Assembly (NCBI GenBank): GCA_002329285.1 | Contig: DCTO01000040.1 | Coordinates: 1-11,868 of the forward strand | Reading direction: 5' to 3' | DNA length: 11,868 bases | DNA from: Ruminococcaceae bacterium UBA1438 | GTDB lineage: Bacteria; Bacillota; Clostridia; Oscillospirales; Acutalibacteraceae | In this document: positions 1-11,868 of the stretch, one piece after another | How positions within the stretch are numbered: the stretch's first letter is position 1 | Layout: every line of letters begins with the position of its first letter | The notes under the pieces: generated by a model | Told to the model about the DNA's origin: nothing | Database searches by the model: none | Seen by the model: the letters and a program-made list of their open reading frames with translations, nothing else | Made by a program: the position numbers and the translations under genes

Positions 1-906
1 AATGAAAAGCTGGTGCCTTTCCTTATCCGCAAAGCGAACAATTTTATCCTCAAAGCTGGGGCAGTAGCGCGGCCCCTTGCCGTCAATCCTGCCGCTGTAC
101 ATCGGAGAGCGGTGCAGGTTTTTCAGGATAACCTCTTTTGTTTTTTCGTTAGTGTATGTGATATAGCACGCCGCTCTGTTTTCGGGGCGCGCCTCGGTTT
201 CAAAGCTGAAGGGCACGGTACGCTCGTCGCCCTGCTGAATTTCTGTTTTGGAAAAATCAACGCTGCGCCTGTTAACGCGGCTTGGCGTGCCCGTCTTAAA
301 GCGGCGGAGCGGAAGCCCAAGCGCCTTCAGGCTTTCGGCAAGCTCGGTTGCGGGAAACATTCCGTCCGGCCCGCTTTCATAAGAAACCTCGCCGATATAA
401 ATTCTGCCTCCGAGAAAAGTGCCGGTTGCAATTATAACTGCCCTTGCGCTGAAAACCGCGCCAAGCCTTGTTGTCAGGCTCCAGCCGTCCCCGCTTTTTT
501 CAATTGCGGTTATCTCTGCCTGGCGCAAATCAAGGTTTTCCTGCTTTTCAAGCGTGTGCTTCATGCCCTTTGAATATTCTCTGCGGTCAATCTGCGCGCG
601 CAGGGAATGAACGGCAGGGCCTTTGCCGAGATTAAGCATTCGTGATTGGATGCTGTATTTATCAGCAGCCTTGCCCATCTCGCCGCCGAGGGCGTCCAGC
701 TCTCTCACAAGATGCCCCTTTGATGTGCCGCCGATGGAGGGATTGCAGGGCATATTGCCCACGGAATCCAGATTAATGGCAAAAACCGCGGTTTTGCAGC
801 CCAGGCGCGCCGAAGCAAGCGCGGCTTCAATGCCCGCATGCCCTGCGCCGATAACGGCAATATCATATTTTCCTGCGTTATACTTTTCCATAAAATCTCC
901 AAACAT
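1..906 (-). CDS. mnmG: MnmG (GidA), tRNA U34 carboxymethylaminomethyl synthesis enzyme, N-terminal part
   Basis: This is the first 302 codons of a protein that is normally about 620-640 residues; the rest lies beyond the left edge. MnmG is the FAD- and NADH-dependent partner of MnmE that installs the aminomethyl-type group on wobble uridine 34 of certain tRNAs. Visible here are the N-terminal dinucleotide-binding motif [10 protein letters not shown] (about residues 20-29), the family signature [11 protein letters not shown], then [15 protein letters not shown] and [12 protein letters not shown]. The start at 906 has a GGGGAGG Shine-Dalgarno 5 nt upstream. A second ATG at 891 with GGAG before it is also possible and would shorten the protein by five residues. 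The gene follows mnmE after a 46-nt gap, as in many Firmicutes, and is the last visible gene of the rpmH operon. Confidence 0.95.
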
Positions 907-911
907 ATTTG

Positions 912-930
912 CCTCCCCGAAAAGGGGAGG
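912..930 (-). promoter_or_regulatory. Hairpin masking the mnmG ribosome-binding site
   Basis: On the minus strand CCTCCCC, a 5-nt loop and GGGGAGG form a perfect 7-bp GC-rich hairpin. Its 3' arm is itself the Shine-Dalgarno of mnmG. No U-run follows, so it is not an intrinsic terminator. It probably lowers or regulates mnmG translation. That function is inferred; the pairing is read directly. Confidence 0.6.
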
Positions 931-952
931 TGCGGTTGCGCTGAAAGCAGGA

Positions 953-2317
953 CTATTTTCCCACACAGAATTTGCTGAATATATTGTTAACAACCTCAAC
1001 GGTTGCCTTTTGCCCCGTTAAGGCAAGCAGCTCGTCAACGGCGCTGTCCATCATAACGTTAACGGCGTCATAGGTTAAGCCGTTTTCAAGCGCCTTCCTC
1101 GCTTCCTTAATATAATCAAGCGCTTTGCGGCAGCAATCCTTCTGGCGCTGATTTGCCAGAATCGGGGCAGAGGTGTCAAACTGCTCAACGCCGAGAATGC
1201 GCTTAACTGCCGCTTCAAGCGCTAAGGCGCCGTACCCGTTTTTGGCGCTGATATAAACCGTTTCGGCAAAGCGCTTTTCAATTTCGCCGCAGTCAAGGCG
1301 CGTTTCAAGATCTGTTTTATTAATAACGGCGATTGCCCTTTTGCCCTCGCAGGCTTCAAGCACCTCAAAATCCTCATCGGTGAGAGGGGCGGAACTGTCA
1401 AACACAGCCAGCACAAGGGCTGCCGCTTCAATCTTGTCCTTCGCTCTTTTGATGCCGATGCTCTCAACCGTGTCGCCCCCGGCGTGAATTCCCGCCGTGT
1501 CGTTAAGATGAAGCACGAGCCCGCCAAGGCGCACGCTTTCCTCAACAACGTCGCGCGTGGTGCCTGCAATTTCCGTCACAATGCTTTTCTCCCTGCCGGC
1601 AAGCAGGTTCATCAGCGTGGATTTGCCCGCATTCGGCTTTCCCGCGATAACGGTTTCAACCCCGTGGGTCATCGTCTGCCCGCTGTCATATCCGGCAAGC
1701 AGCTCCTCAAGCCGCGCCTGCGCGCTTTTAAGCGTTGCGCAAAGCTCGCTCTCCTCCAGCTCCGGGATTTCCTCATCGGGATAATCAACCCAAGCCGCCA
1801 TCAGCGCGGATGAATCAACCAGCATTTCCTGCACGGCGGTGATTTTCCTGCTTAAAGCGCCCTGCAGCAGGTTGAAGGAGGCCTGCGCCGCCGCTTCGCC
1901 CTCTGCAGAAATCAAATCAGCAACGGATTCCGCCTGCGTTAAATCAAGCTTGCCGTTAAGAAACGCCCTTTTTGTGAATTCGCCTGCCTCCGCCGGCTCT
2001 GCACCCGCGGCAAAAACCGCGCCGAGCGCCTTTTCAATTATATATATGCCGCCGTGAACGGAAATTTCCGCAACGTCCTCGCCCGTGTAGCTTTTTGGCG
2101 CACGGAAAACAAGCGCAACGGCATTGTCAAACCGCTCGCCATCACTTTTAATGCAGCCGAATTTTGCGCGATAGCCCTTTAAATCAAGCAGGGAAGAGCC
2201 GTCAGCGCATTCAAAAACACGGTCTGCAATTTCAATTGCAGAGTCTCCGCTTATTCTGATAACTCCGATGCCGCCGGGCGAATTGCCCGTTGCAAGCGCC
2301 GCAATTGTTTTGGACAT
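953..2317 (-). CDS. mnmE: MnmE (TrmE), tRNA modification GTPase
   Basis: This 454-residue GTPase acts with MnmG on tRNA wobble uridine 34. The N-terminal formyl/tetrahydrofolate-binding domain begins with [21 protein letters not shown]. The inserted G domain carries GKPNAGKS (226-233), GTTRD (252-256), DTAG (273-276), NKTD (333-336) and SAK (357-359). The C-terminus is FCVGK, with the conserved cysteine at 451. The reading frame stays open upstream to 2638, but that stretch overlaps jag and is not MnmE-like. The ATG at 2317 gives the normal family length and the canonical N-terminus, with a modest GGTGAT upstream. The gene sits 55 nt after jag and 46 nt before mnmG in one operon. All GTPase motifs are intact, so it should be functional. 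Confidence 0.97.
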
Positions 2318-2333
2318 ATTTATCACCAAATAA

Positions 2334-2360
2334 AATGGCGAACGACAACCGCTCGCCATT
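2334..2360 (-). terminator. Hairpin between jag and mnmE, possible leaky terminator
   Basis: The minus strand reads AATGGCGA, an 11-nt middle, then TCGCCATT. This gives an 8-bp perfect stem that can extend inward by three or four more pairs including G-U. It is followed by TTATTTGG, only a modest U-rich tail. It lies in the 55-nt jag-mnmE gap. It could attenuate or process the operon transcript rather than end it, because mnmE has no obvious promoter of its own here. Confidence 0.5.
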
Positions 2361-2372
2361 ACAATCAAATAA

Positions 2373-3353
2373 TTATTCTTCGGTTGTTTCCTCGGTTGCC
2401 TCTGCTGCAGGAGCAGGAACCTCAATTTTTCCGAATTTTGTAAAATCCTTCTGAACAGGCTTTGCTGCCGGCTTGGGAGATGAGTTGCCGCCTCTGCCGC
2501 CGCGATTGCCGCCCCTTGATTGATTTCTCGGCCCGCCGATAGGCTGGATAACAACCTTTCTGTCCTGCCCGTAACCGATGGACATTGATTCAACGCCCTC
2601 GATTTCCTGAACGGCAGTGTGGATAATCCTTCTTTCATAAGGATTCATCGGCTCAAAGGTGTGCCTCTTGCCGGTGCGGTTAACGTAATTTGCGTTCTTG
2701 CGGGCAAGGTTGCGCAGGGTTTCCGCTCTCTTTTCGCGGTAATTGCCGACGTTGAGGGTAACTCTCACATATTTGCCGCTTGCCTTCTTAACCTGAAGGC
2801 TGGTTAAATACTGAAGCGAATCAAGCGTTTCGCCCCTGTGGCCAATGATGATTCCGTAATCATCACTTTCGATTGTGAGCTCAAGCACGCCGTCAATAAC
2901 TGCGCCGGTAATCTCTGCGCCCTCAACCTTCAGGCCCTTTATCATCTCGCCGAGATAAGCCTCTGCCGCCTTGATGTCAACGTCGGCCTCGGTGATTTTA
3001 ATCTCTTCCTTTTCGCTCTCTGCCTTTTCTGCCTTCGGTGCCGGCTTTTTGGGAGCGGGCTTTTCAGCCTTCTTTGCGGGCTGCTCCTTCTTTTCGGGAG
3101 CCTTTTTCTGGGCGTCCTTCTTTGGAGCGTCCTTCTTTGCAGGCTTGTTCTGCTTTTGCTTCTTTGGCTTTCTGCCGTCGTCATATGACGCCAGAACGGT
3201 CACCTCCGCGCTTCCGAAAAGGCCAAGAAACTTTTTCTTCTGCTCAACAATCTCCGTGTGCACCAAAGCATCCTCCGGAGCGTGAAGGCCGGCCTTTGCC
3301 GCGGCAATAGCCTCTGCAAGAGTTTTGCCCGTTGCGGTGAATTCTCTTTTCAT
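2373..3353 (-). CDS. jag: Jag (KhpB/EloR-type) RNA-binding protein with a Gly/Arg-rich tail
   Basis: This 326-residue cytoplasmic RNA-binding protein belongs to the SpoIIIJ-associated family, whose members in other Firmicutes act in post-transcriptional control of cell elongation and division. The Jag_N domain spans about residues 1-56 (KKKFLGLFG motif). A long Lys/Ala/Pro-rich linker of some 70 residues follows. The KH domain carries the GHRGETLDSLQYL core, and the R3H domain has RRIIHTAVQ. After R3H comes an unusual tail with RGG-like repeats (SRGGNRGGRGG) and an acidic end. The start at 3353 has GGAGG five bases upstream. The gene begins 23 nt after yidC, the usual pairing with the membrane insertase. 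The Lys-rich linker and RGG tail are probably disordered RNA-binding extensions. Confidence 0.95.
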   Translation of the reverse strand: MKREFTATGKTLAEAIAAAKAGLHAPEDALVHTEIVEQKKKFLGLFGSAEVTVLASYDDGRKPKKQKQNKPAKKDAPKKDAQKKAPEKKEQPAKKAEKPAPKKPAPKAEKAESEKEEIKITEADVDIKAAEAYLGEMIKGLKVEGAEITGAVIDGVLELTIESDDYGIIIGHRGETLDSLQYLTSLQVKKASGKYVRVTLNVGNYREKRAETLRNLARKNANYVNRTGKRHTFEPMNPYERRIIHTAVQEIEGVESMSIGYGQDRKVVIQPIGGPRNQSRGGNRGGRGGNSSPKPAAKPVQKDFTKFGKIEVPAPAAEATEETTEE

Positions 3354-3376
3354 ATGATCCTCCGATTGTGATCTGG

Positions 3377-4366
3377 TTATTTAGTTCTTTTGATGCTTTC
3401 CTCTCTTGAGCGGCGGTTAATCGTGTTTTCAAGCATAAGCTTTGCCTGGCTCTTCTGGGGAGGATAAAATTTTGCAATAAACAGCTGCTGAAGCACAGCA
3501 ACCAGGTTTGAAATAATCCAGTAAAAACCAACCGCTGCAGGAACCTTAAAGGCGATGTATAATGAGAAGAAGGGCATCATCAGCATCATCAGCATCATGC
3601 TGCCCATCTGCTTTGCCTGCGCGGGATTATTTTTTCTCTGAATAAGTGTTGAAATCACTGTTGAAGCCATTGAGGTTAAAAATGCGAAAATCGGAATCAG
3701 AATAATGCTGCCGCCCTTCCAGGTGGGGATTTCCGCCATGTCCATTCCGCCAAGATAAAGTCCGCTTCTGAAAACCTCAATTTCAGCCACGTTTGCATCC
3801 GTGAAAAGATTCGGGAACTGGGCGATGAGAGTGTCCTTAAACTCATTCCAGTTTGCAAGAATGCCCAGCTGGATATAATTTCCGCTGTATCCCAGCTCCT
3901 TAACCACATCCTTAATCTGATCGGTGTTAGCGGTGAAATCGCTCATGCCGATAACGTAAGAAAGGGGATAATAGATAATACCGATAATTCCCATCAGGAA
4001 AATCATCTGAAACATCATCGGCCCGCAGCCCATCTGCATCGGGTTGTGGCCCTCTCTTGCATAAAGCTCCTGCATTTCCTCATTGAGCTTCATTCTGTCC
4101 TTAGGATCGGGATATTTCTTCTGAATCTTCTGAATTTTCGGCTGCAGCCTTGCGGTTTTTGCAACGGTTTTCTGCTGCCTGATGTTAACGGGAAGCAGGA
4201 TAAGCCTTGTTACAACCGTGAAAATAATGATTGCAACAAAATATTCGTTGTTAAGAATCGTGAGCAAAAATGCCATGCATTTGCCGAAAACCCAGTAAAG
4301 CGGGGCAAGGAAGCCGCCGCCCTGTGACATTGCTGCTGCAACAGGATTAACTAAAAGATCAATCAT
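3377..4366 (-). CDS. yidC: YidC/Oxa1/SpoIIIJ membrane protein insertase
   Basis: This 329-residue integral membrane protein inserts and folds other membrane proteins, alone or with the Sec translocon. The first membrane segment of the core (about 42-60) holds the conserved intramembrane arginine at 54, in the TRLILLPV motif. A basic cytoplasmic hairpin follows (KTARLQPKIQKIQKKYPD). Then come further membrane segments, including a Met-rich stretch (about 240-260) ending in PFFSLYIAFKVPAAVGFYW. No lipobox cysteine is seen near the N-terminus, unlike SpoIIIJ/YidC of Bacillus. The C-terminus is basic (RSREESIKRTK). A GAGGA lies about 10 nt before the start. It is three bases downstream of yidD and just upstream of jag, as expected. 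Confidence 0.96.
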   Translation of the reverse strand: MIDLLVNPVAAAMSQGGGFLAPLYWVFGKCMAFLLTILNNEYFVAIIIFTVVTRLILLPVNIRQQKTVAKTARLQPKIQKIQKKYPDPKDRMKLNEEMQELYAREGHNPMQMGCGPMMFQMIFLMGIIGIIYYPLSYVIGMSDFTANTDQIKDVVKELGYSGNYIQLGILANWNEFKDTLIAQFPNLFTDANVAEIEVFRSGLYLGGMDMAEIPTWKGGSIILIPIFAFLTSMASTVISTLIQRKNNPAQAKQMGSMMLMMLMMPFFSLYIAFKVPAAVGFYWIISNLVAVLQQLFIAKFYPPQKSQAKLMLENTINRRSREESIKRTK

Positions 4367-4369
4367 TCT

Positions 4370-4633
4370 TTATTTTTCCTCGTTACAATTTGACTCTTTT
4401 GTCTTTTTCGGGGGAACGGGGTCATATCCGCCCTTTGAAAACGGATTGCATCTGATAATCCGCCAGGCGGCAAGCGCGCTTCCCTTAAAAACCCCGTGGG
4501 TTTCAATCGCCTCAATCGCATATTGAGAGCAGGTTGGGGTGAAGCGGCAGGAGCCGTGTGAAAATCTTGGGCTCAAAGTGAGCTGATAGGTTTCAATCAA
4601 AAAGATAAACAGGCGTTTAATCGGGTTTTTCAT
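4370..4633 (-). CDS. yidD: YidD membrane protein insertion efficiency factor
   Basis: This small 87-residue protein of the YidD family (UPF0161) supports YidC-dependent membrane insertion. It shows the family pattern: an amphipathic N-terminal helix ([16 protein letters not shown]), then [21 protein letters not shown], and [17 protein letters not shown]. All the usual cysteines are present. Its ATG overlaps the rnpA stop codon in an ATGA arrangement, and it has no strong Shine-Dalgarno of its own, so it is probably translated by coupling to rnpA. yidC follows after three bases. Confidence 0.96.
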
Positions 4634-4962
4634 CTTATAACACCAAGCTGCAAAAGCTGCTTTTCCATATCGGCAAGCACCTCCTGCATTTTAACCTCTG
4701 TGGTTTTCGTTCTGGCAACAAAAACAATGTCAAAGCTGCCGCAGATTCTGCCCTCAAGCTCGGCAAACGCCGCTCTTATAACGCGCCTTGCGCGGTTTCG
4801 CTGCACCGCACCGCCGATTTTCTTCCCCGTGGTTATGCCGATTCTTGTTTCACCCGCGCGGTTTTTCATTGCGTAGGTAACAAGGCAGGGGGAGGCAATG
4901 CTTTTTGCCCTGTAATATAAACGGCGGAAATCCTTGTTTTCTTTAAGCGCTCTGCTTTTCAC
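4630..4962 (-). CDS. rnpA: RNase P protein component
   Basis: This 110-residue basic protein binds the catalytic RNA of RNase P and helps it mature the 5' ends of tRNAs. The family signature [12 protein letters not shown], the RNR motif, is at about residues 55-66, and [13 protein letters not shown] matches the conserved N-terminus. The start is GTG at 4962, with GAGGG nine bases before it; an ATG inside the reading frame would cut off the conserved N-terminus. It lies 43 nt after rpmH and overlaps yidD by 4 nt. Confidence 0.96.
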
Positions 4963-5005
4963 AAATTCGTTCCCTCTGTTAATTCCGGTTAATCAGTTTT
5001 GCCGA

Positions 5006-5140
5006 TTAATAAGAAAGTGTTTTTCTGCCCTTTGCGCGGCGGCGAGCCAAAACCTTTCTGCCGCCTCTTGTGCTCATTCTCTTTCTGAAGCCATGCTCCT
5101 TCTGTGCGTGCCTTTTCTTCGGCTGAAATGTTCTCTTCAT
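5006..5140 (-). CDS. rpmH: 50S ribosomal protein L34
   Basis: This 44-codon gene is easily missed by length filters. The protein begins [18 protein letters not shown] and continues with [26 protein letters not shown], a full-length match to L34 of the large ribosomal subunit. An AAAGGTAG sequence lies about 7 nt before the ATG at 5140. It is the first gene of the operon and is followed by rnpA, one of the most conserved gene pairs in bacteria. Confidence 0.97.
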
Positions 5141-5287
5141 AAATTCACTACCTTTCTAAGAATAAACTTGTCTTATTTCTTTATTTTCTCTGCACGGTAT
5201 AGTGCAGGCAATTAACTTTAAAGTGGCCGGTGTCGGGTCGCTGCGCTCCGATTTTGTTCGGTAACCGGACTGCTGCCCACATTAGCG
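5141..5287 (-). promoter_or_regulatory. Structured 5' leader of the rpmH operon
   Basis: About 145 nt lie between the predicted transcription start and rpmH. On the minus strand this holds CTGCAC, a 6-nt loop and GTGCAG (5190-5207). Further upstream is a larger GC-rich fold bounded by CCGGT and ACCGG (5227-5268), with CCGA/TCGG nested inside. No known riboswitch or ribosomal-protein leader was recognised, and whether it regulates anything is unknown. Confidence 0.4.
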
Positions 5288-5293
5288 AGAAAT

Positions 5294-5323
5294 ATTATAT
5301 ATTAAAATTAAGGCCGTTGTCAA
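5294..5323 (-). promoter_or_regulatory. Near-consensus promoter of the rpmH operon
   Basis: On the minus strand, TTGACA at 5323-5318 and TATAAT at 5299-5294 are separated by 18 bp. Both hexamers match the housekeeping sigma factor consensus exactly. The predicted start is near 5287, and no other good promoter was seen between here and rpmH. Confidence 0.85.
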
Positions 5324-5340
5324 CAAAAAAATAATAAATC

Positions 5341-5369
5341 TTGTTTTTGTTTAAATTATATATTATAAT
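5341..5369 (+). promoter_or_regulatory. Probable promoter of the VanZ-like gene
   Basis: A perfect TATAAT at 5364-5369 stands 17 bp after a weak -35 (TTGTTT, 5341-5346). The predicted start is near 5376, giving a leader of about 20 nt before the ATG at 5396. It lies back to back with the rpmH promoter, their -35 boxes 17 bp apart. Confidence 0.55.
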
Positions 5370-5395
5370 AGCACTATATGTTGGGGGTAAGGCAT

Positions 5396-6223
5396 ATGGC
5401 ATCAACAAGAATTAAAAGCATTTTGCTGAATTTTTCCGTTTTTTCTGCGGTTGTGCTGTCTGCTTTTGCGTTCACTGACCAAAAGGACGGCGTTTTTATC
5501 GTCAGCCGCCATTATATGCTGCTCAAACTGGCATTAAGCCTGCTGCTGCCGTTATTCGCGGCGCTTCTGTGCTTATTTGCAACGGGGGATGCGCGCCCGC
5601 TTTCGGTAATAACGCTGCTCCTTCAGCCTGCGTTTGTGGTTTTCACAATTGCCTCAAACGGTTATTATATTCGTTTTTCGCGCAACTTTATGCAAAATCA
5701 TTATGCTTATGCCCTGCTTGCGTTTTTTGCGGTTTATCTTGCGGCGATTATTGCGGCAGGCCGAAAAAAAATAACCCCTGCGGCCTTTAAAGGCTTCAGC
5801 AAGCGGTTTTTTATCGGCTATTTATTCGTTTTTGTTTTTCTCTTTGTTCGCATTTATTATTCTTCAAGGGTTGATGTTTCGCTCGGCACGGTTAATTTAA
5901 TCCCGTTTGCGGGTGAAATTCAAAACTCGCTTCACTCGCTTTCGCCCGTAATTTCCGCTGTTCACGCTGCGGGCAACGTTTTGTTTTATTCCGCATTTTC
6001 TCTTATGCTCCGTGGGCTTTTCGGAGAAAAAATCAGAAGCAAGGCAGGGGAGGCGGCTCTGCTTATCGGCGTTCCCTTTGCCGTGAGCCTTCTGTGTGAA
6101 ATTTCCCAGTATTTAACCCTGCGCGGCAACGCTGATATTGATGATTTGCTTTTAAATACGCTCGGCGCGGCTATCGGCTTTTTCGCCGCAAGGGGCATAA
6201 GAAAATTTGTGTTGGAGGATTAA
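5396..6223 (+). CDS. VanZ-like family membrane protein
   Basis: This 275-residue hydrophobic protein has several predicted membrane segments. The C-terminal half shows the VanZ-like pattern: NLIPF (about 165-170), then a segment with AGNVLFY, and near the end LLCEISQYLTLRGNADIDDLLLNTLGAAIGF, whose CEISQ and DIDDLLLN portions are the hallmark. VanZ gives low-level teicoplanin resistance in enterococci, but most family members have unknown roles, so no drug phenotype should be assumed. The ATG at 5396 is preferred over 5378: it has GGGGGTAAGG before it, whereas the earlier ATG sits almost at the predicted transcription start with no Shine-Dalgarno. Its last codons carry the Shine-Dalgarno of the next gene. 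It occupies the position beside rpmH where dnaA is commonly found. Confidence 0.85.
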   Translation: MASTRIKSILLNFSVFSAVVLSAFAFTDQKDGVFIVSRHYMLLKLALSLLLPLFAALLCLFATGDARPLSVITLLLQPAFVVFTIASNGYYIRFSRNFMQNHYAYALLAFFAVYLAAIIAAGRKKITPAAFKGFSKRFFIGYLFVFVFLFVRIYYSSRVDVSLGTVNLIPFAGEIQNSLHSLSPVISAVHAAGNVLFYSAFSLMLRGLFGEKIRSKAGEAALLIGVPFAVSLLCEISQYLTLRGNADIDDLLLNTLGAAIGFFAARGIRKFVLED

Positions 6224-6226
6224 CCT

Positions 6227-6907
6227 ATGCTTGGAATTATCGGTGCAATGGATGTTGAAATTGATGCCGTTAAAAACGAGGTTTCGCAGGCGCAAACCGC
6301 CGTTTTCGCCGGCTGTGAATTCGTTTGCGGAAAAATAAACGGCGCGGAGGTCTGCGTGGCAAAATGCAATCCCGGCAAGGTTAATGCCGCCCTTTGCGCC
6401 CAGGTGATGATTGACCGCTTCGGCGTTTCAGAGCTCGTCAACGTCGGCGTCGGCTGCTCGCTTTCAGAGCGGGTTACAATCAAAAGCCTCGTGGTTGCAA
6501 CGGAGGTTTGCCAGTATGATTTTGACACCTCTGCAATTGACGGCGTTAAGGGCCTCGTCATTGATAACAAGGTTAAGCTCCCTGCTGATTCGGCGCTTTC
6601 GGATGCGCTTGCCCGTGCCGCAGAGGAATGCGGCGCGCAGGTTCACCGCGGCTGCATCGCCAGCGGAGACACCTTTATCGCCTCGCAGACAAAAAAGGAT
6701 GAAATCGTGCAGGATTTCGGCGCAATCTGCGGTGAAATGGAGGGCGGCGCAATCGGCCAGGTCTGCTATGTTAACGGCATTCCGTTTGCCGTGCTTCGCT
6801 CAATAAGCGACGGCGGCGACGAGGCGGCAGCGCTTGATTACCCAACCTTCAAAAAAATCGCCGCGGAAAAATCCGCAGCGATAATGCTTAAATATATCAA
6901 GGGTTAA
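6227..6907 (+). CDS. mtnN: 5'-methylthioadenosine/S-adenosylhomocysteine nucleosidase family protein
   Basis: This 226-residue cytoplasmic enzyme of the purine nucleoside phosphorylase fold is expected to cleave adenine from MTA and SAH in methionine salvage. GIIGAMDVEI at the N-terminus contains the catalytic-type glutamate (E11). SGDTF is at 146-150. GEMEGGAIGQVCYVNGIPF holds E172, and RSISD holds the catalytic aspartate D195. All the key residues lie where they do in Escherichia coli MtnN. Two segments differ: the usual TGSAGG loop reads VGVGCS (about 73-78), and the HDxDxTAFGY segment reads YDFDTSAIDG (97-106). Substrate preference may therefore be altered. The start has GGAGGA seven bases upstream, inside the end of the VanZ-like gene. 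The 3-nt gap implies an operon. Confidence 0.88.
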   Translation: MLGIIGAMDVEIDAVKNEVSQAQTAVFAGCEFVCGKINGAEVCVAKCNPGKVNAALCAQVMIDRFGVSELVNVGVGCSLSERVTIKSLVVATEVCQYDFDTSAIDGVKGLVIDNKVKLPADSALSDALARAAEECGAQVHRGCIASGDTFIASQTKKDEIVQDFGAICGEMEGGAIGQVCYVNGIPFAVLRSISDGGDEAAALDYPTFKKIAAEKSAAIMLKYIKG

Positions 6908-6915
6908 GCCCTGTT

Positions 6916-7560
6916 TTAATCGGCAATAAAATTATTCATAATATAGCCTTCCGCTTCCTGAATCAGCTCCTGCAAAGCGCTGTCCTCAAGCTCCTTTGCG
7001 CCGCTGCGGGATTTATCCTCGATAAAAACAAAGCGGGAATCAAGCACGGCAATTGCTGCCGATGCAAGCTCATGCCCCAAATTATAATCCAGCGCAAAAA
7101 TATCGCTCGGCAGGGCGCCCGCCTTTGCAAGGGTTAGCGCGCTTCTGTAAAGGCAAAGCATATAATAATCGTGCAGGTAATGCACGCTGTCCGTCCTTGA
7201 GGCGGAGGCAACAGCCGTGTCAATCAAAAGCTTCATTCCCTGGGCAAGATTTGCCATTGATGGGCTGCCGATGGCCTCGCTTGCAATTTTTGTGAGATAT
7301 TCCTCGTTCATTCCGTGCCTGTTTTCGGAAACGCCAAGCAGGTAATCGGTTGTAACGCCGTAATATTCGCTGCAGCGGATAACGAAATCCAGCCCGCATT
7401 CGCGGATGCCCTTTTCATAATGGCTCAAAAGCGCCTGGCTGATGCCAAGGTCTGCGGCAGCCTTTTTCTGGCTGTATCCTCTCTCTTTTCTTAATTGTGA
7501 TAAAATCGCGGCAAAGCGGGTTGCTTTTTCTCTTTTGGCCGCTGTCTTTTCGGTTGGCAT
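6916..7560 (-). CDS. Xre-family helix-turn-helix transcriptional regulator
   Basis: This 214-residue DNA-binding protein has a Cro/C1-type helix-turn-helix at about residues 17-75, including SQKKAAADLGISQALLSHYE and the following YYGVTTDYLLG. The remaining 140 residues are mostly helical and not recognised; they may sense a ligand or form dimers. It converges on mtnN with only 8 nt between stop codons and diverges from the histidine phosphatase. A promoter lies at 7607-7635, and repeated TTGTAA motifs overlap and follow it, so it probably represses itself and perhaps the phosphatase gene. The target is inferred from layout only. Confidence 0.9.
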   Translation of the reverse strand: MPTEKTAAKREKATRFAAILSQLRKERGYSQKKAAADLGISQALLSHYEKGIRECGLDFVIRCSEYYGVTTDYLLGVSENRHGMNEEYLTKIASEAIGSPSMANLAQGMKLLIDTAVASASRTDSVHYLHDYYMLCLYRSALTLAKAGALPSDIFALDYNLGHELASAAIAVLDSRFVFIEDKSRSGAKELEDSALQELIQEAEGYIMNNFIAD

Positions 7561-7606
7561 AATCTATTTCCCTCAAATCAAACTTGTTGTTCTTTATACA
7601 CTCTGT

Positions 7607-7635
7607 ATTATACCGCTTGTAATAGCGTTTGTAAA
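7607..7635 (-). promoter_or_regulatory. Promoter of the Xre-type regulator
   Basis: On the minus strand TTTACA (7635-7630) and TATAAT (7612-7607) are 17 bp apart, with five of six and six of six matches to the sigma-A consensus. The predicted start is about 40 nt before the regulator ATG. Confidence 0.75.
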
Positions 7636-7665
7636 CCCAAACTTTGCTTTGTAAACAAATTGTAA
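7617..7665. promoter_or_regulatory. Four phased TTGTAA motifs, candidate operators
   Basis: TTGTAA occurs at 7617, 7629, 7649 and 7660, spaced 12, 20 and 11 bp, close to whole helical turns. Two copies extend to TTTGTAAAC (7628-7636 and 7648-7656). An inverted copy, TTACAA, lies at 7702-7707. The first two overlap the spacer and -35 of the regulator promoter. Binding by the Xre-type protein is inferred. Confidence 0.45.
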
Positions 7666-7736
7666 TTTTAAGCGTTTTTTGGGCGTTTTTTCGCCAAATT
7701 ATTACAAATTTCCTTTCTTCTGATCGGAGGTAAAAT

Positions 7737-8375
7737 ATGAAAACTTACACCGTTTATCTCTTTCGCCACGGGTTGACGAAGGGCAATATCAACGCACAGT
7801 ATATTGGGCACACGGATTATCCGCTAACTATGGATAGTATAGATGCGCTCAAAAAAATCAAGGCGCAGCATCATTATCCGCAGGTGGATGCGGTGTTTTC
7901 CTCGCCGCTCAAAAGGTGCCTTGATTCTGCAAACATAATGTTTCCGAAAAATAACCCAATTGTAATAAATGATTTGATTGAATATAATTTCGGCGAGTTT
8001 GAGGAATGCACTGCAGAGGACTTAAAGGATAACGAGGATTTCAAAACCTGGCTTCAGGGGGATATTAACGCCGCCCCGCCTTACGGCGAATCAAACGCGC
8101 AGTTTATTCACCGCGTTTGCGATGCCTTTGAAAAAATTGTTGAGGGAATGATAAACACGGGCACGCAAAGCTGCGCCATCGTCGGCCACGCGGGCGTGCT
8201 TATGACTCTGCTTTCCTGTTACGGTCTGCCGGAAGCGCCAATGGCGCATTGGCAGATGGATGCCGGCTATGGCTATAAGCTGCGCATAACCCCCTCGCTC
8301 TGGTCGCAGGCGAATAAATTGGAGGTTGTTGATTTGGCGCCGCAGTCTCTTGAAGAAATAAAAAACGAAGAATGA
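7737..8375 (+). CDS. Histidine phosphatase family protein (phosphoglycerate mutase-like)
   Basis: This 212-residue cytoplasmic phosphohydrolase belongs to the branch-1 histidine phosphatase superfamily. The catalytic motif FRHGLT has R10 and the phospho-accepting H11. SSPLKRC supplies the second arginine (R60), EYNFGEFEE the probable general acid E82, and VGHAG the second histidine (H151). Length and motifs fit alpha-ribazole phosphatase (CobC) and phosphoglycerate mutase-like enzymes, but no cobalamin gene is nearby, so the substrate is unknown. GGAGG lies seven bases before the ATG. It is transcribed away from the Xre-type regulator. No clear promoter of its own was identified in the 176-bp gap. 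Confidence 0.9.
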   Translation: MKTYTVYLFRHGLTKGNINAQYIGHTDYPLTMDSIDALKKIKAQHHYPQVDAVFSSPLKRCLDSANIMFPKNNPIVINDLIEYNFGEFEECTAEDLKDNEDFKTWLQGDINAAPPYGESNAQFIHRVCDAFEKIVEGMINTGTQSCAIVGHAGVLMTLLSCYGLPEAPMAHWQMDAGYGYKLRITPSLWSQANKLEVVDLAPQSLEEIKNEE

Positions 8376-8380
8376 AAAAT

Positions 8381-8403
8381 CAAACAGGGCAATCCCTTGT
8401 TTG
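8381..8403 (-). terminator. Hairpin with a U-rich tail on the minus strand
   Basis: CAAACAGGG, a 4-nt loop and CCC-T-TGTTTG pair with one bulged base. On the minus strand the hairpin is followed by ATTTTTCATTC, which suits a terminator for transcripts arriving from 8612 and beyond. On the plus strand it lies 5 nt after the phosphatase stop without a U-run. Confidence 0.45.
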
Positions 8404-8559
8404 GCGTAACCCCTGTCTGATTAACCTCGTCCAAGCAAATTACGCAGTCAAGTCGCAACTAAAATAATTGCTTAAAGACTGCTTCGTTTGTTTCTCCTCT
8501 TCGCAAAATTACCGACCACTAAAAAAGGAACCGCAAGGGGCGACTGTCATAAAGAAGTT
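8404..8559. other. Intergenic sequence without a recognised gene
   Basis: Open reading frames across this stretch are short, lack good ribosome-binding sites and resemble nothing recognised. There is no tRNA-like fold or clear promoter. It separates the histidine phosphatase from the bidirectional terminator. Confidence 0.4.
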
Positions 8560-8594
8560 TGAGCACGGCAATTTATGCCGTGCTCATTGTTTTA
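8560..8594. terminator. Strong intrinsic terminator, probably bidirectional
   Basis: TGAGCACGGCA (8560-8570), loop ATTTA, and TGCCGTGCTCA (8576-8586) form a perfect 11-bp stem. On the plus strand TTGTTTTA follows; on the minus strand AACTTCTTT follows. It stands 26 nt past the end of the zinc-ribbon gene remnant, so it most likely ends that minus-strand transcript and also stops plus-strand readthrough from the phosphatase. Confidence 0.8.
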
Positions 8595-8611
8595 TGAATT
8601 ATTCAATTTTA

Positions 8612-8863
8612 TTAGTTTGCTGTAAGCGAGATATGTGTTGGCTCATGGATTTCTATAAACCAACCGTCAGGAACTTCTATTTCATCTTCGCCGTTAACAT
8701 CAAGTCTAACTATTATAGGTTCTTCGGCTTCTGAATGCTCATAATAGCCTGTCTGTTCATTTTTTATAGCGTTATAAACAGAAACTTGTGTCATTTTCTC
8801 ACCAAGATTATTCACAGTATATTTTCCGGCAGGTACATAGTAAACAATGATTGCACCCTCTTC
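8612..8863 (-). pseudogene. Detached C-terminal part of the zinc-ribbon membrane protein
   Basis: After the TAA at 8866-8864 the same reading frame continues for 83 codons (EEGAIIVYYVPAGKYTVNN and onward) to a normal stop. The segment reads as a beta-rich extracytoplasmic domain (VPAGKYTV, IIVRLDVNG, VPDGWFIEI). An internal GTG at 8815 is the longest possible restart, but no good Shine-Dalgarno precedes it. The continuous frame and protein-like composition show that it was once joined to the upstream part; it is probably untranslated unless the stop is read through or is a sequence error. Confidence 0.75.
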
Positions 8864-9442
8864 TTAACTCATTGTTATTTCTTTTCCATATTCTCCTGCT
8901 TCACCGGCAATCAGTTCAATAGAAGCATTTGTTGGCAAAGCTTCTGATGTCTCTGCGCTTGAAGTAATTGAAGTGTCTGCTGTCGTTTCCGCAGTTGAAT
9001 TGTTGTTATCTGTATTATTTCCTCCGCCAGTAAAAGCAATAGCCAGATAAACAATCCAAGCAACTGCAATAATTCCGTATTTAAGAATATTATTCATATC
9101 CTTTTTGCGAAGTAAAATGATTGTAAGAGGTACAGGGAAGATAAAAATCCAACCGAGCACCCAAAGCCATGTTTTCTTTTTCTTTGGAGCGTCTTGTGTT
9201 TGCCAAGTATAACCACAATCGTTGCATACACCTGTTGTTGTGCGTATGATTTGTGTGCCCCTTTTACCCTTTGATTCGCCTAACTTTTCGCGTGCAAATT
9301 TAATGTTTGTGCTTCCGCATTTAGGACAGCCCTCTTTGTTAAGCTGTTCCTGCTCTTTCTGCATATCGGCAGTAATTTGTGAACCGCAAAACTCACAATA
9401 TTTAGAGTTGTTGATTTCTGCTCCGCAATTCGGACATTTCAT
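8864..9442 (-). CDS. Double-zinc-ribbon membrane protein, cut short by an in-frame stop
   Basis: This is a 192-residue product. The N-terminal zinc ribbon uses C3, C6, C16 and C19 (MKCPNCG and CEFCG). A second ribbon uses C39, C42, C73 and C76 (GCPKCG and GVCNDCG). Two membrane segments follow at about 91-112 and 119-138. A Ser/Thr/Asn-rich linker follows and then the start of an outer domain, interrupted by TAA at 8866-8864. The frame remains open upstream to an ATG at 9562, but the ATG at 9442 is chosen: it begins the zinc ribbon and has GGGAG seven bases before it, while the upstream stretch crosses a terminator hairpin. Topology suggests a cytoplasmic metal-bound head and an exported tail. 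No specific function is recognised. It sits behind a structured leader RNA. Confidence 0.8.
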   Translation of the reverse strand: MKCPNCGAEINNSKYCEFCGSQITADMQKEQEQLNKEGCPKCGSTNIKFAREKLGESKGKRGTQIIRTTTGVCNDCGYTWQTQDAPKKKKTWLWVLGWIFIFPVPLTIILLRKKDMNNILKYGIIAVAWIVYLAIAFTGGGNNTDNNNSTAETTADTSITSSAETSEALPTNASIELIAGEAGEYGKEITMS

Positions 9443-9460
9443 AATATTTCTCCCTTCAAT

Positions 9461-9491
9461 AATAAAAATGCGCACAGTCAGAACTGTGCGC
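9461..9491 (-). terminator. Intrinsic terminator in the leader of the zinc-ribbon gene
   Basis: On the minus strand GCGCACAGT, loop TCTG and ACTGTGCGC form a perfect 9-bp stem followed by ATTTTTATTATT. It lies 28 nt upstream of the zinc-ribbon gene ATG and downstream of the rod-like RNA. It therefore either ends a small RNA or works as an attenuator. Confidence 0.8.
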
Positions 9492-9513
9492 CAAAAACGC
9501 CGCTCTAACTGTC

Positions 9514-9635
9514 GCCAAACAATCTCACACACCGTCCAAAACAGATATGCAATAAAGAGCATGCATTTTTATCAAAAGAGATAAAAATAGCATACCTGCT
9601 ATTGGACATAATATTCACTTGTGAGATTATTTGGC
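9514..9635 (-). ncRNA. Rod-like structured RNA, leader or small RNA of unknown class
   Basis: The minus strand can fold into a single long rod. Helix 1 pairs 9635-9620 with 9529-9514, 16 bp including one U-G. Helix 2 pairs 9607-9602 with 9539-9534, 6 bp. Helix 3 pairs 9598-9590 with 9550-9542, 9 bp including one G-U. Helix 4 is a 9-bp apical stem (9588-9580 with 9573-9565, loop UCUUUU). Internal loops are asymmetric (12 by 4, 3 by 2, 1 by 14). Both wobble pairs exist only in the minus-strand RNA; the other strand would have A-C mismatches. A promoter places the start at about 9635, the first base of helix 1, and a terminator follows 22 nt after helix 1. It does not match 6S RNA, T-box, SRP RNA or a riboswitch that I can recognise. 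Confidence 0.6.
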
Positions 9636-9641
9636 ACTTAC

Positions 9642-9670
9642 ATTTTAGCATTTTATTATATAATAGTCAA
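9642..9670 (-). promoter_or_regulatory. Promoter of the structured leader RNA
   Basis: On the minus strand TTGACT (9670-9665) and TAAAAT (9647-9642) are 17 bp apart, each with five of six matches to the sigma-A consensus. The start is predicted near 9635. Confidence 0.75.
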
Positions 9671-9699
9671 GAAATATGTCATAGGGTGTAGCGGGCATA

Positions 9700-9719
9700 G
9701 GATTTGTAATGCCAAATCC
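9700..9719. repeat. Small palindrome between promoter and terminator
   Basis: GGATTTG, a 6-nt loop and CAAATCC form a 7-bp hairpin. It has no U-run. It lies between the recombinase-side terminator and the leader RNA promoter, in otherwise featureless sequence. Confidence 0.35.
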
Positions 9720-9722
9720 CTG

Positions 9723-9756
9723 AAAAGAAAAACAGACCGAAAGCATATCGGTCTGT
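9723..9756 (-). terminator. Intrinsic terminator after the recombinase remnant
   Basis: On the minus strand ACAGACCGA, a 7-nt loop and TCGGTCTGT form a perfect 9-bp stem followed by TTTTCTTTTC. It ends transcripts that come from the hsdS/recombinase side, separating them from the zinc-ribbon unit. Confidence 0.85.
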
Positions 9757-9760
9757 CGTT

Positions 9761-9882
9761 AATGAAATATTGCAAGCAATGTGAAATAATTTGCTAAAGC
9801 AAATTGTGAAATATCTCGCTTTGCTCGAAATGAAATTAAATTAATCCTATATACGTTTTAGTATTGCTCGCTTTCAGCGAGA
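9761..9882. repeat. Array of short palindromes separated by TGAAAT motifs
   Basis: TGAAAT recurs at 9763, 9782, 9807 and 9830. Between the copies lie small palindromes: ATTGCAAGCAAT, AATTTGCTAAAGCAAATT, and CTCGCTTTGCTCGA (imperfect). A further palindrome, CTCGCT-TTC-AGCGAG (9867-9881), lies just beyond and supplies the last codons of the broken recombinase. The layout suggests a dispersed non-coding repeat inserted or recombined into the recombinase gene. I have a general impression of similar arrays in other Clostridia but cannot confirm it here. Confidence 0.6.
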
Positions 9883-10454
9883 ATGACCATCTCTCCAACA
9901 CGCATCCCGGAGGAAGCGAGCAGATCAATAATTGCTAAATCCCTTGTGGTCGCGCAGCTATCCCGCATCAGCTCTAATGCCTCGTCCGTGTAGGTGTCTT
10001 TGACCACCTTTGCCGTCTTTGCCTTGTGAATCCGGCGGACCGGACTTTTCAAGATGAAGTCTTCGTCTTCGAGCCATGAGAAGAAGCTGGACAGTATGCG
10101 CCGGATGTTATCAATCGTTACCTTGCTGGATCTGCGTTGCGTCTGGTAGGTGGTCAGGTACTTGCGAAGATCATCCGTTGTTATCTGACTGGCCTTCTTA
10201 GCGATGGCAGACAGCATGGATTCAATCGTCTTTCGGTAATACTTCAAGGTCTTCTCGGAGCAACCCTCAATGCGCTTGGCAGAAATAAAAGCATCAACTG
10301 CATCTTGTTCATCCTGCTTGGCATCAGTTCCTTCTTGGCTGATACTCACACCTTGCAAAGCCTCAGCCAAAGCGCTGCCTAACTGTAACAGTTGTTCATT
10401 GTTGAGATACGGCAGCATTTTACGCTGTATCTCTTGGATAAGTTGTTCTTTCAT
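9858..10454 (-). pseudogene. Truncated tyrosine recombinase (XerC/D-like integrase)
   Basis: This is a 198-codon remnant of a protein that is normally about 300-330 residues. The N-terminal core-binding SAM-like domain (about 50-140) includes FISAKRIEGCSEKTLKYYRK and ILSSFFSWLEDEDFI. The catalytic domain then begins with TRDLAIIDLLASSGMRVGE and contains the first catalytic arginine, R185. The frame ends 13 codons later in a palindromic repeat, so the lysine, the HxxR motif, the second histidine/tryptophan and the nucleophilic tyrosine are all missing. The protein cannot catalyse strand exchange as it stands, though its DNA-binding domain may fold. AAAGGAG stands seven bases before the ATG. 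It follows hsdS by 107 nt; recombinases in this position often invert hsdS specificity cassettes. Confidence 0.88.
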
Positions 10455-10488
10455 CGTCGTTCTCCTTTGTCTTTAAGAGAACGATGAA
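10450..10488 (-). promoter_or_regulatory. Hairpin covering the recombinase start codon
   Basis: On the minus strand TTCATCGTTCTC (10488-10477) can pair with GAGAACG plus ATGAA (10464-10450, three bases bulged). The ATG and the end of the Shine-Dalgarno lie in the paired arm, so translation is probably restrained. Confidence 0.45.
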
Positions 10489-10523
10489 CAGTGGCAGTTC
10501 CTTTGAAGTGACTCTCGCCACTG
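10489..10523. repeat. Inverted repeat between hsdS and the recombinase
   Basis: CAGTGGC (10489-10495) and GCCACTG (10517-10523) are inverted copies 21 bp apart. A second, overlapping palindrome pairs CTCTC (10512-10516) with GAGAG (10526-10530). They lie in the 107-bp hsdS-recombinase gap and might be a recombinase binding site. Their role is unproven. Confidence 0.35.
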
Positions 10524-10561
10524 ATGAGAGTTAATAGGGCGGTAAACGATAATTTAGCGGC

Positions 10562-11779
10562 TTAAAGCTGGATAGCAGAGACATCAATTTTGCCCGACAT
10601 CAACTTTGGAAGGAGCGCATCTCGATTGGATGCAAGCCTGTTATTTTCTTCCTGATTCGAGACAATGGCAGCTGCCATCGGCGCAATGAGAGCATTAAAG
10701 CGTTCTAAAGTCTCCTTATCAGGCAAAAGAAGTTCGATAGCCTTTACGCGATCTCTGGGCAACTCTGTCTGACCAGTGCTTCCTGTATGAAGCGACTCGA
10801 TTTCTTTTTCATGCTGGGTTCCCCACAACCCAATATAGAAAATCATATTTTCTGCTGCTGGCCGGACAATCGTAACATGAGAATCAACAGTAAGATTATG
10901 TGGCTGAAACCAGACCTGCGCTGCTCTCCCTAAAGTGCCATCGCCAGTCGAGTTGATTAGCAAGTCTCCAAATTGGAGCCACTTATTATTGATAACTTTC
11001 GGCCTATGGCTTCGCGCAAAAGAAAGATCAATCATGTGATTGCGAATGCACTTCTGATTGATTACAATTTGGCCGGTATCATCAGCGTATTTTGGAGTTA
11101 TGCCGCGACTTACCAGTGTTGTAATGTCTTCTAAAGTGACATTCTTCCATTCGTCTGGTACAGTGCCCCCGAATGGAACATAATCGACAAACCATGATCT
11201 AAAAATCGCAGCGGCTTGCTGCTGTAAATTATCGTTTATCTCAGCATTTGTTTTTATCCTCGTCTGCAAAGAGCCTATAAGCTTAACCACTTTTCTCTGT
11301 GTTTCAAGATCGGGTATTTCTATCTCAATCTTTTGAAAAGTTGAAGAAGGACGAGCCAAGGCAGGAACGCCTACTTGCGAAGCATTGCTAAGAAGTTTAT
11401 GCTGTCCAATCGGTGTATGAAAGTAGTACACAAAATACTCCGGCAGAACTTTCTTATTACACTTGACGCGGAACTGAGATTGCGATATCACATATCGATC
11501 CCTTTGCGCAGTCTGAGGAATGTAAACAATCTGTCCCAGTGTTCCCCGGTGAGTAATTACAACATCACCCTTATATGCGTTGGCCTTTTTAAGTGAATCA
11601 GCCTTTTCCTTGGTAACATAGCGGAATGATTTTTCCGAAAGTTCAAATCCCTCAAGATTGCTGCCGTTGAGAACAGGGATGCCTTTATCAACAAAGCAAT
11701 CGACTTTTATATTTGAGCCAAACGGCCCCATTGCTATTTCATCTATCAAATCAGCGATGGGGTAGGTTTTATAATTCAT
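10562..11779 (-). CDS. hsdS: Type I restriction-modification specificity subunit HsdS
   Basis: This 405-residue DNA-recognition subunit directs the HsdM methyltransferase and HsdR nuclease to a bipartite target. The first target recognition domain (about 1-155) opens with MGPFGSNIKV and ends near PSSTFQKIEIEIPDLETQRK. The central conserved helix region has NDNLQQQAAAIFRSWFVDY. The second recognition domain follows (VPDEWKNVTLEDI through LPDKETLERF), and the distal conserved region ends NRDALLPKLMSGKIDVS. Full length and both repeats look intact. The ATG at 11779 is chosen because it overlaps the hsdM stop by 11 nt and opens a typical HsdS N-terminus; an upstream ATG at 11836 lies inside hsdM. 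The motif recognised cannot be predicted. Confidence 0.95.
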   Translation of the reverse strand: MNYKTYPIADLIDEIAMGPFGSNIKVDCFVDKGIPVLNGSNLEGFELSEKSFRYVTKEKADSLKKANAYKGDVVITHRGTLGQIVYIPQTAQRDRYVISQSQFRVKCNKKVLPEYFVYYFHTPIGQHKLLSNASQVGVPALARPSSTFQKIEIEIPDLETQRKVVKLIGSLQTRIKTNAEINDNLQQQAAAIFRSWFVDYVPFGGTVPDEWKNVTLEDITTLVSRGITPKYADDTGQIVINQKCIRNHMIDLSFARSHRPKVINNKWLQFGDLLINSTGDGTLGRAAQVWFQPHNLTVDSHVTIVRPAAENMIFYIGLWGTQHEKEIESLHTGSTGQTELPRDRVKAIELLLPDKETLERFNALIAPMAAAIVSNQEENNRLASNRDALLPKLMSGKIDVSAIQL

Positions 11780-11868
11780 ATCCAATCGCCCCCAGTCTCT
11801 CCTTGATCTCGGCCTCAAGCTCATGGGATTTTGCAAACAGTTCGGAAAGCTCAGAGGTCAACCGGCTC
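11769..11868 (-). CDS. hsdM: HsdM type I DNA methyltransferase, C-terminal end
   Basis: Only the last 32 codons are inside the window, ending ELFAKSHELEAEIKERLGAIGY before EL and a TAA at 11771-11769. This helical, Glu/Lys-rich tail with LGAIGYE is typical of HsdM C-termini, which contact HsdS. The 11-nt overlap with hsdS gives tight translational coupling of the modification complex. The catalytic NPPY-type motif would lie beyond the right edge. The call rests on this short tail plus its position directly before hsdS. Confidence 0.75.
   Translation of the reverse strand, partial: SRLTSELSELFAKSHELEAEIKERLGAIGYEL

Follow-up and report, generated by a model that had tools for sequence, protein, structure and literature searches.

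What is the rod-like element that stands between a promoter and a zinc-ribbon membrane gene on contig DCTO01000040.1 of Ruminococcaceae bacterium UBA1438 (assembly GCA_002329285.1)? We analysed positions 1 to 11,868 of the forward strand of this contig, hereafter the window. A first-pass annotation of these letters had read a promoter, a 122-nt rod, a terminator, a Shine-Dalgarno sequence and a gene in succession on the minus strand, and had taken them for a new structured leader RNA or attenuator. It looked to compensatory changes across homologs, and to covariance searches of Clostridia genomes and of Rfam, for confirmation. All of these parts are found on the minus strand where the annotation had placed them, to the base (Table 1).

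Table 1. Elements of the leader and its gene in the window
Feature	Position	Strand	Basis and remarks
-35 box TTGACT	9665-9670	-	sequence reading; 17-nt spacer to -10
-10 box TAAAAT	9642-9647	-	sequence reading; rod begins 6 nt further on
Rod RNA, P1-P4 and bulge, 122 nt	9514-9635	-	covariance model match 137.3 bits; covariation; strand bias
P1 5' arm, 16-bp closing helix	9620-9635	-	partner 9529-9514
P1 3' arm	9514-9529	-	family covariation
J1 internal loop, 5' side, AGTGAATATTAT	9608-9619	-	RNAfold and copy comparison; last base common to P2 in the fold
P2 5' arm TGTCCAA	9602-9608	-	partner 9539-9533; RNAfold; model helices 2-4
P3 5' arm	9590-9599	-	partner 9550-9541; model helix 5
P4 5' arm	9580-9589	-	partner 9573-9564; model helix 6
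Conserved 13-nt bulge CATGCTCTTTATT	9551-9563	-	copy comparison
P5 5' strand AAAAATGCATGCTC (P4 3' arm and bulge)	9557-9570	-	duplex with linker -15.1 kcal/mol in the window copy; family covariation
Linker GACAGTTAGAGCGGCGTTTTT	9493-9513	-	9505-9493 is the P5 3' strand
Terminator hairpin GCGCACAGT-TCTG-ACTGTGCGC	9470-9491	-	arms covary across the family
Terminator T-tract	9458-9469	-	sequence reading
Shine-Dalgarno AAGGGAG	9450-9456	-	sequence reading
Gene behind the leader: zinc ribbon and membrane segment, 192 aa to stop; ATG at 9442	8864-9442	-	Pfam Zn_Ribbon_TF, E 1.2e-7
Upstream palindrome GGATTTGGCATTACAAATCC	9700-9719	-	similar form before L018, L019, L028, L088 and L098

Folded with RNAfold, positions 9650-9440 reach -75.8 kcal/mol against -47.6 (sd 3.9) in 200 dinucleotide shuffles, none of which is as low (z -7.2). 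Because the -10 box ends 6 nt before the rod, the 5' end of the transcript is predicted to be the rod's first base or to lie within 1-2 bases of it. From the T-tract to the start codon of the gene there are 15 nt. The gene itself stops at 8864-8866, its relatives at loci L034, L088 and L098 extending to 275-284 aa. The reading frame continues at 8612-8863 past this stop and intact copies exist elsewhere; the early stop may be a sequence error or decay.

The rod family and selection on its RNA

A blastn search with 141 bases identified 4 additional copies in the same genome and matches in 54 of 148 genomes, its own counted. The 34 copies that we compared side by side have in common a -10 box, the rod ends GCCAAA...TTTGGC, a paired but variable middle, a near-invariant core (ATTTTTATC..GATAAAAATGCATGCTCT), the tail GACAGTT, a T-run and a terminator. 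With a covariance model built from 12 copies we obtained 109 matches in 100 sources, 6 of these being weak antisense matches of the palindrome, and no match in 4 sources, among them records labelled Gammaproteobacteria and Rhodobacteraceae. Five copies are found by this model in the window's own genome, one of them weak (E 0.002). Among the records listed, most are ruminant MAGs labelled Oscillospiraceae, Ruminococcaceae, Eubacterium or Clostridia (labels as given in the records).

At E<=1e-4, the covariance model matched 55/80 genomes of the genus, with 30 matches in a single genome (G064), and 65/300 genomes of the family, representing 41 of 135 genera. A wider model, R2, applied at E<=1e-6, matched 81/394 genomes (50/168 genera) of the order and 62/391 genomes (36/223 genera) of the class, the four genome samples overlapping. 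Few candidates were scored per genome (8 in the order and class searches), so copy numbers are lower bounds. The search of Clostridia genomes proposed in the first-pass annotation thus reveals a multi-copy family that is matched in genus, family, order and class. Four distant genomes of the class contain seven units that keep the same plan, with P4, bulge, linker and terminator retained; the letters of P1 differ in these units yet pair (GCAACA/TGTTGC, GCTAAACAA/TTGTTTAGC, GCTACACAA/TTGTGTAGC and others), and a gene was located behind four of the seven. For the counts below we used a parsed set of 185 copies. The parser accepts a copy only if P1 has GCC-like ends and the rod is followed by a T-run, and the distant members therefore fall outside this set, a few entries of which look antisense or wrong (the second L105, L145 on the plus strand, L147 and L228 on the minus strand).

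The element appears to be uncatalogued. No family of Rfam 15 covers a rod at gathering score in the scanned loci (the window with 6 and 8 loci at E<=1, and 10 more at gathering), and the few overlaps with rods are at chance level, such as one in L030 with 23.7 bits against 80.4. Likewise, the rod RNA is not described in the main-text portions of the literature searched, which include parts of PMC8040213, PMC2864571, PMC11109978 and PMC8632094.

The compensatory changes that the annotation had looked for are abundant. Across the 93 distinct sequences of alignment A4, 96.0% of cells are paired against 74.7 in shuffled alignments, and both-side changes are seen in 36 of the 41 pairs. Covariation scores 0.521, compared with 0.155 after shuffling and 0.035-0.043 when partners are slid by 1-3 columns; A4 is fitted to the model, which favours the model, and the shuffles ignore shared ancestry. 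Both-side changes occur in 11/16 pairs of P1 (99.4% of cells paired), in 8/8 model pairs of P3 (model helix 5) and in 10/10 of P4 (model helix 6). Sixteen of the 109 matches lie outside A4, namely the six antisense matches and ten that are weaker or come from omitted sources. The alignments are model-based, a MAFFT alignment (A1) having misaligned the variable stems.

Selection can also be assigned to a strand. The sense strand has 314 G-U cells against 13 A-C cells, and on the opposite strand those 314 would be mismatches, which argues that the minus-strand RNA is what is selected. The first-pass annotation had drawn the same conclusion from two wobble positions in the window, and its argument holds family-wide. 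A leader peptide is unlikely: among 120 rods, lengths modulo 3 are distributed as 50, 36 and 34, and an open frame whose start lies within the first 50 nt is present in 66 rods and absent from 54.

Promoter, terminator and the P5 pseudoknot

A promoter-like pattern precedes 169 of the 185 parsed copies, a set for which the parser demands a T-run behind the rod, and the distance from the -10 hexamer to the rod is exactly 6 nt in 118 of 183 scored copies. At the other end, the arms of the terminator covary (z -20.6, 120 copies), and the T-run of the linker is followed within 0-2 nt by the terminator stem in 119/120 copies. Taken with the covariation and wobbles of the rod, the nearby gene starts described below and the lack of an Rfam family, the promoter spacing and the covarying terminator strongly support the claim of a new structured leader RNA.

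We compared 16 pairs of segments for covariation, and it is clear only for P1, for P5 and for the terminator itself. Pairings of the rod, of P4 with the bulge or of the linker with the terminator arms show no clear covariation, with z between -2.2 (linker with the 5' arm) and 1.8. A pairing that would break the terminator thus lacks clear covariation on either arm, and we rejected a classical antiterminator. The word attenuator in the first-pass annotation remains plausible for the order of promoter, leader, terminator and gene; the terminator-arm pairings do not speak for it.

P5 links the rod to the linker: the linker sequence ahead of the terminator (GAGC-UAUGCGUUUUU) is complementary to the P4 3' arm and bulge taken together (AAAAAUGCAUGCUC). 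In 109 distinct combinations out of 124, the copies' own duplexes average -15.9 kcal/mol against -13.97 (sd 0.21) when the strands are re-dealt among copies, with 0 of 300 re-deals as low, and the two segments covary with z -9.8. At the second pair after the A-run, G-C is found in 124 copies and A-T in 45; 177/182 copies are paired here, where shuffles reach at most 152. The third and fourth pairs exceed all 1000 shuffles and the first pair all but 2; the fifth is not above chance, 137 of 1000 shuffles reaching the observed value. The score of the distal four pairs exceeds every shuffle. An odd bulge is often accompanied by a matching odd linker (L188, L199, L210, L217, L287), and pairing is poor in some copies such as L118 and L207.

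P5 crosses P1-P3, hence it is a pseudoknot, and it excludes the upper part of P4, with -16.0 kcal/mol against -6.2 for the P4 hairpin. It would require the rod to bend, since its strand in the linker starts roughly 8 nt past the P1 base and the bulge is about 33 bp up the rod. Equal arm lengths could point to side-by-side packing; the lengths of P1 and of the P2 plus P3 arms have medians of 18 and 18 and are not correlated in the 37/185 copies usable for this comparison, whose script constraints were off by one.

The promoter position, the rod, P5, the terminator, the gene position and the spread of the family are demonstrated at the level of sequence comparison. We consider it probable that the rod unit belongs to a new family of cis-acting leader RNAs and sets read-through at its own terminator. 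Transcription would begin at the base of P1, and the rod, P1-P4, would fold first. As the linker emerges from the polymerase it could pair with the bulge and the P4 3' arm, forming P5 directly against the terminator. The downstream gene would be read only when the polymerase gets past the terminator, since the start codon follows too closely behind it for the gene to have a promoter of its own. A leader that is made first and folded against the terminator would thus be placed to set the rate of read-through. Because one strand is claimed by both P4 and P5, the two would offer a natural switch: read-through would most likely depend on whether P4 forms (rod state) or P5 (pseudoknot state), in answer to a protein or a small signal. 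We infer that read-through is what is controlled, that P4 and P5 are the alternatives and that there is a signal, the switching step in particular being deduced because the pairings with the terminator arms show no clear covariation. Weighing against a cis-acting leader are this missing pairing, the tandem arrays described below, which would be odd for a pure cis leader, and the want of a common function among the genes, together with the three distant units behind which no gene was located, the bend that P5 asks of the rod and the copies in which P5 pairs poorly.

The layout is that of attenuator leaders, whether riboswitches or protein-bound: promoter, structured leader, intrinsic terminator and gene, where the lack of a promoter of the gene's own is judged from the spacing. 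Both are 5' leaders with conserved loops, covarying helices, an intrinsic terminator and a Shine-Dalgarno sequence with its gene, and both stand before many genes. Unlike such leaders, the rod leader has neither a clear antiterminator pairing nor a common gene theme, its unit includes the promoter at a usually fixed distance, and its rods are exchanged between loci.

Alternatively, the fold might modify the polymerase and thereby carry it past the adjoining terminator with no antiterminator pairing involved, as a processive antitermination RNA of the EAR or PUT type would. PUT is a structured RNA that acts in cis on terminators, as EAR does and as we propose for the rod leader. A pseudoknotted fold that abuts the terminator, and arms of that terminator without a clear partner, would suit such a device, as would the ability of EAR, a cis-acting RNA sequence, to antiterminate several distal and even heterologous intrinsic terminators according to excerpts of PMC7858274. 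The same excerpts place the targets of EAR at distal terminators inside an operon, whereas the rod leader adjoins a single terminator, sits by the promoter and precedes many unrelated genes. Homology to EAR or PUT found no support in Rfam matches in the scanned loci (PUT may have no Rfam model), and we regard this explanation as rather improbable.

Genes behind the leader

Sufficient flank was available for 174 parsed copies. A Shine-Dalgarno sequence with an open reading frame follows at most 105 nt from the rod in 107 of these, whereas the same holds for 170 of 3000 positions drawn at random from the loci. Of the others, 23 have such a start within 200 nt, 23 have a looser reading frame, 9 are followed by the next tandem unit and 12 by no reading frame; among these 12, the sequence is N at 2 loci, and the start of the gene has decayed in some.

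The 79 downstream proteins match 44 Pfam families. Among the best 25 of the 44, the BspA-type LRR_5 is commonest (13/79), zinc-ribbon families account for at most 6 each and overlap, AMP-binding proteins number 4 and SHOCT proteins 3. No single gene function or common metabolic theme is apparent among the 79 proteins. The first-pass annotation had placed the leader before a zinc-ribbon gene, and zinc ribbons do occur; they are one of many gene types. A heuristic classification of 115 proteins gave 42 with a signal peptide or membrane start, 13 lipoprotein-like, 15 with a zinc-ribbon start, 12 with an inner membrane segment and 33 in none of these classes. PADLOC named 13 families for the 79 proteins. 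Twelve of these occur in a single protein each, the best being a subtilase (E 3.1e-19), and KwaA occurs in 3 proteins (best E 2.3e-5); we discerned no pattern and rejected defence cargo.

The window protein has matches in 2 of 80 genus genomes (E<=1e-20, its own included), both with the leader. A second zinc-ribbon protein is matched in 16/80 genomes and the leader is present at 8 of 17 distinct places, including all 5 places whose match covers the N-terminal part; the loci extend 1500 nt upstream, and the leader of a long gene may be missed at the other 9.

Two groups of related proteins were seen behind leaders. In G064, proteins of about 91 aa that are 63-98% identical (L063, L095, L120, L205, L206, L210) each follow their own, different rod (rod identity 0.53-0.74). 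A C-terminal domain of about 92 aa is common to the genes at L312, L315-L317 and L321, whose N-terminal parts differ, and occurs also in genes with no detected leader.

Some units stand in tandem arrays of 2-4 full units, each with promoter and terminator, about 210-270 bp apart (L198, at G008:C60:23365-24288, and L199, L188, L110 and L139). In the G008 array of four, the stretches between rods are alike and the rods differ (by eye); in G055 three tandem units, also by eye, have no gene directly behind them.

Such arrays raise the question of whether the small RNA is itself the product. It would be stable, with its 5' end sealed in P1 and its 3' end at the terminator, and would act in trans or bind a protein, while the gene would be read by leak. 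The repeated promoters and terminators of the G008 and G055 arrays, the position of P1 at the 5' end with a covarying terminator behind, and the 12 copies that no reading frame follows (with the N tracts and decayed starts noted above) point in this direction. Type III toxin-antitoxin systems (ToxIN, CptIN) have a comparable layout, with promoter, pseudoknotted RNA, Rho-independent terminator and then the gene, according to PMC5086642; the rod units differ in being one long rod, not short repeats. No ToxN- or CptN-type endoribonuclease toxin is named in the best 25 of the 44 Pfam families or in the 13 PADLOC families of the 79 proteins. Gene starts follow most copies at the distances given above, and the genes are diverse, even the commonest Pfam family among the best 25 reaching 13/79. 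We judge a free-standing small RNA unlikely as the main product and keep to the cis-acting leader.

Exchange of rods between loci

The rod can have a history of its own. Compared with L088 and L098, the window locus is 0.92-0.93 identical in the promoter and 0.97-0.99 in linker and terminator, but only 0.73-0.74 in the rod. The rods of L088 and L098 instead match that of L028 at 0.96-0.97 identity. L028 stands before an AMP-binding gene that is unrelated, and its identity to the two is 0.84-0.87 in the promoter and 0.77 in linker and terminator. L018 and L019 have identical rods and unrelated genes. Among the 31 units that have a partner with a homologous gene, 17 have a rod nearer to that of a non-homolog and a linker and terminator nearer to those of the homolog; non-homologs being the more numerous, this count is inflated. 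The rod is kept in some homologous pairs (L249/L255, and L088/L098 at 0.99). Rods can thus be exchanged between loci independently of the terminator and gene, which may reflect ectopic recombination or something more specific. We know of no other leader RNA with this pattern, in which the terminator and gene stay in place.

Within genomes, 0 of 179 pairs of rods are alike (identity at least 0.8) compared with 53 of 6262 between genomes, where label shuffles expect 1.4 (0-5); 114 of the 185 copies were labelled for this count, and repeats may break MAG contigs. An avoidance of like rods within a genome is therefore not significant, and in G920 two rods that lie 930 bp from each other are identical. 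We found no blastn match to a 281-base query in 50,697 phage and 72,556 plasmid records and no match to one exact pattern in IMG/VR, and set aside phage or plasmid cargo.

The first-pass annotation had itself feared a mobile palindrome in unrelated contexts. This concern is borne out in part, as rods do lie in unrelated contexts and can be exchanged; against it, 169 of the 185 parsed copies have the promoter-like pattern. A mobile or recombining DNA palindrome that has spread into leaders, its RNA having little function of its own, would account for the identical rods of L018 and L019, for the L028-like rods of L088 and L098 in otherwise window-like surroundings, and for the 17 of 31 units, inflated as that figure is. 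It would not account for compensatory change, a G-U bias on one strand and the P5 link between rod and linker, all signs of selection on the RNA, nor for the usual 6-nt spacing to the -10 box or the rods kept in homologous pairs, and the phage, plasmid and IMG/VR searches, with their one query and one pattern, gave no match. We hold this explanation to be very improbable.

Mobile attenuators (Naville and Gautheret, 2010) offer a partial parallel. There, according to PMC2965389, related terminators occur before unrelated genes and are explained by transposon terminators. Related terminators precede unrelated genes in the rod family too; its units differ as covarying rods with a pseudoknot and a promoter. 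At four leaders in G025 (L338, L340, L341, L342), at contig ends, one and the same foreign sequence starts within the terminator hairpin or directly at it; this sequence is common to six places, at least five of them at contig ends, as if a repeated element targeted these terminators.

Beyond the cis-acting leader, we advance a broader and more doubtful proposal: that the units constitute a class-wide, uncatalogued RNA device of Clostridia, a pseudoknotted promoter-to-terminator leader present in up to tens of copies per genome, which would place many unrelated surface and accessory genes under one signal read by RNA and whose rods would be reshuffled as modules. If so, many gut and rumen Clostridia would use a single RNA, absent from Rfam 15, to control a scattered set of genes for surface proteins, lipoproteins and zinc-ribbon membrane proteins as one regulon. 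The family is big enough for structure and ligand work, and P4 and P5 are two mutually exclusive helices for it.

Upstream of the leader, the plus strand of the window has Gut-1-like hairpins at 9740-9817 (29.4 bits against Rfam's 50). Gut-1 RNA (RF01706) has 10 matches in the same genome, 4 over the cut-off, and adjoins a rod also at G000:C20. Because just 3 of the 10 matches lie beside rods, at two places, we take Gut-1 as a separate upstream hairpin element, distinct from the rod, and not as part of the leader unit. Further along, a tyrosine recombinase gene on the minus strand (9858-10454) stops short within the catalytic domain, of whose 172 profile positions it covers 7-44, and adjoining it at 10562-11836 is a type I restriction specificity gene.
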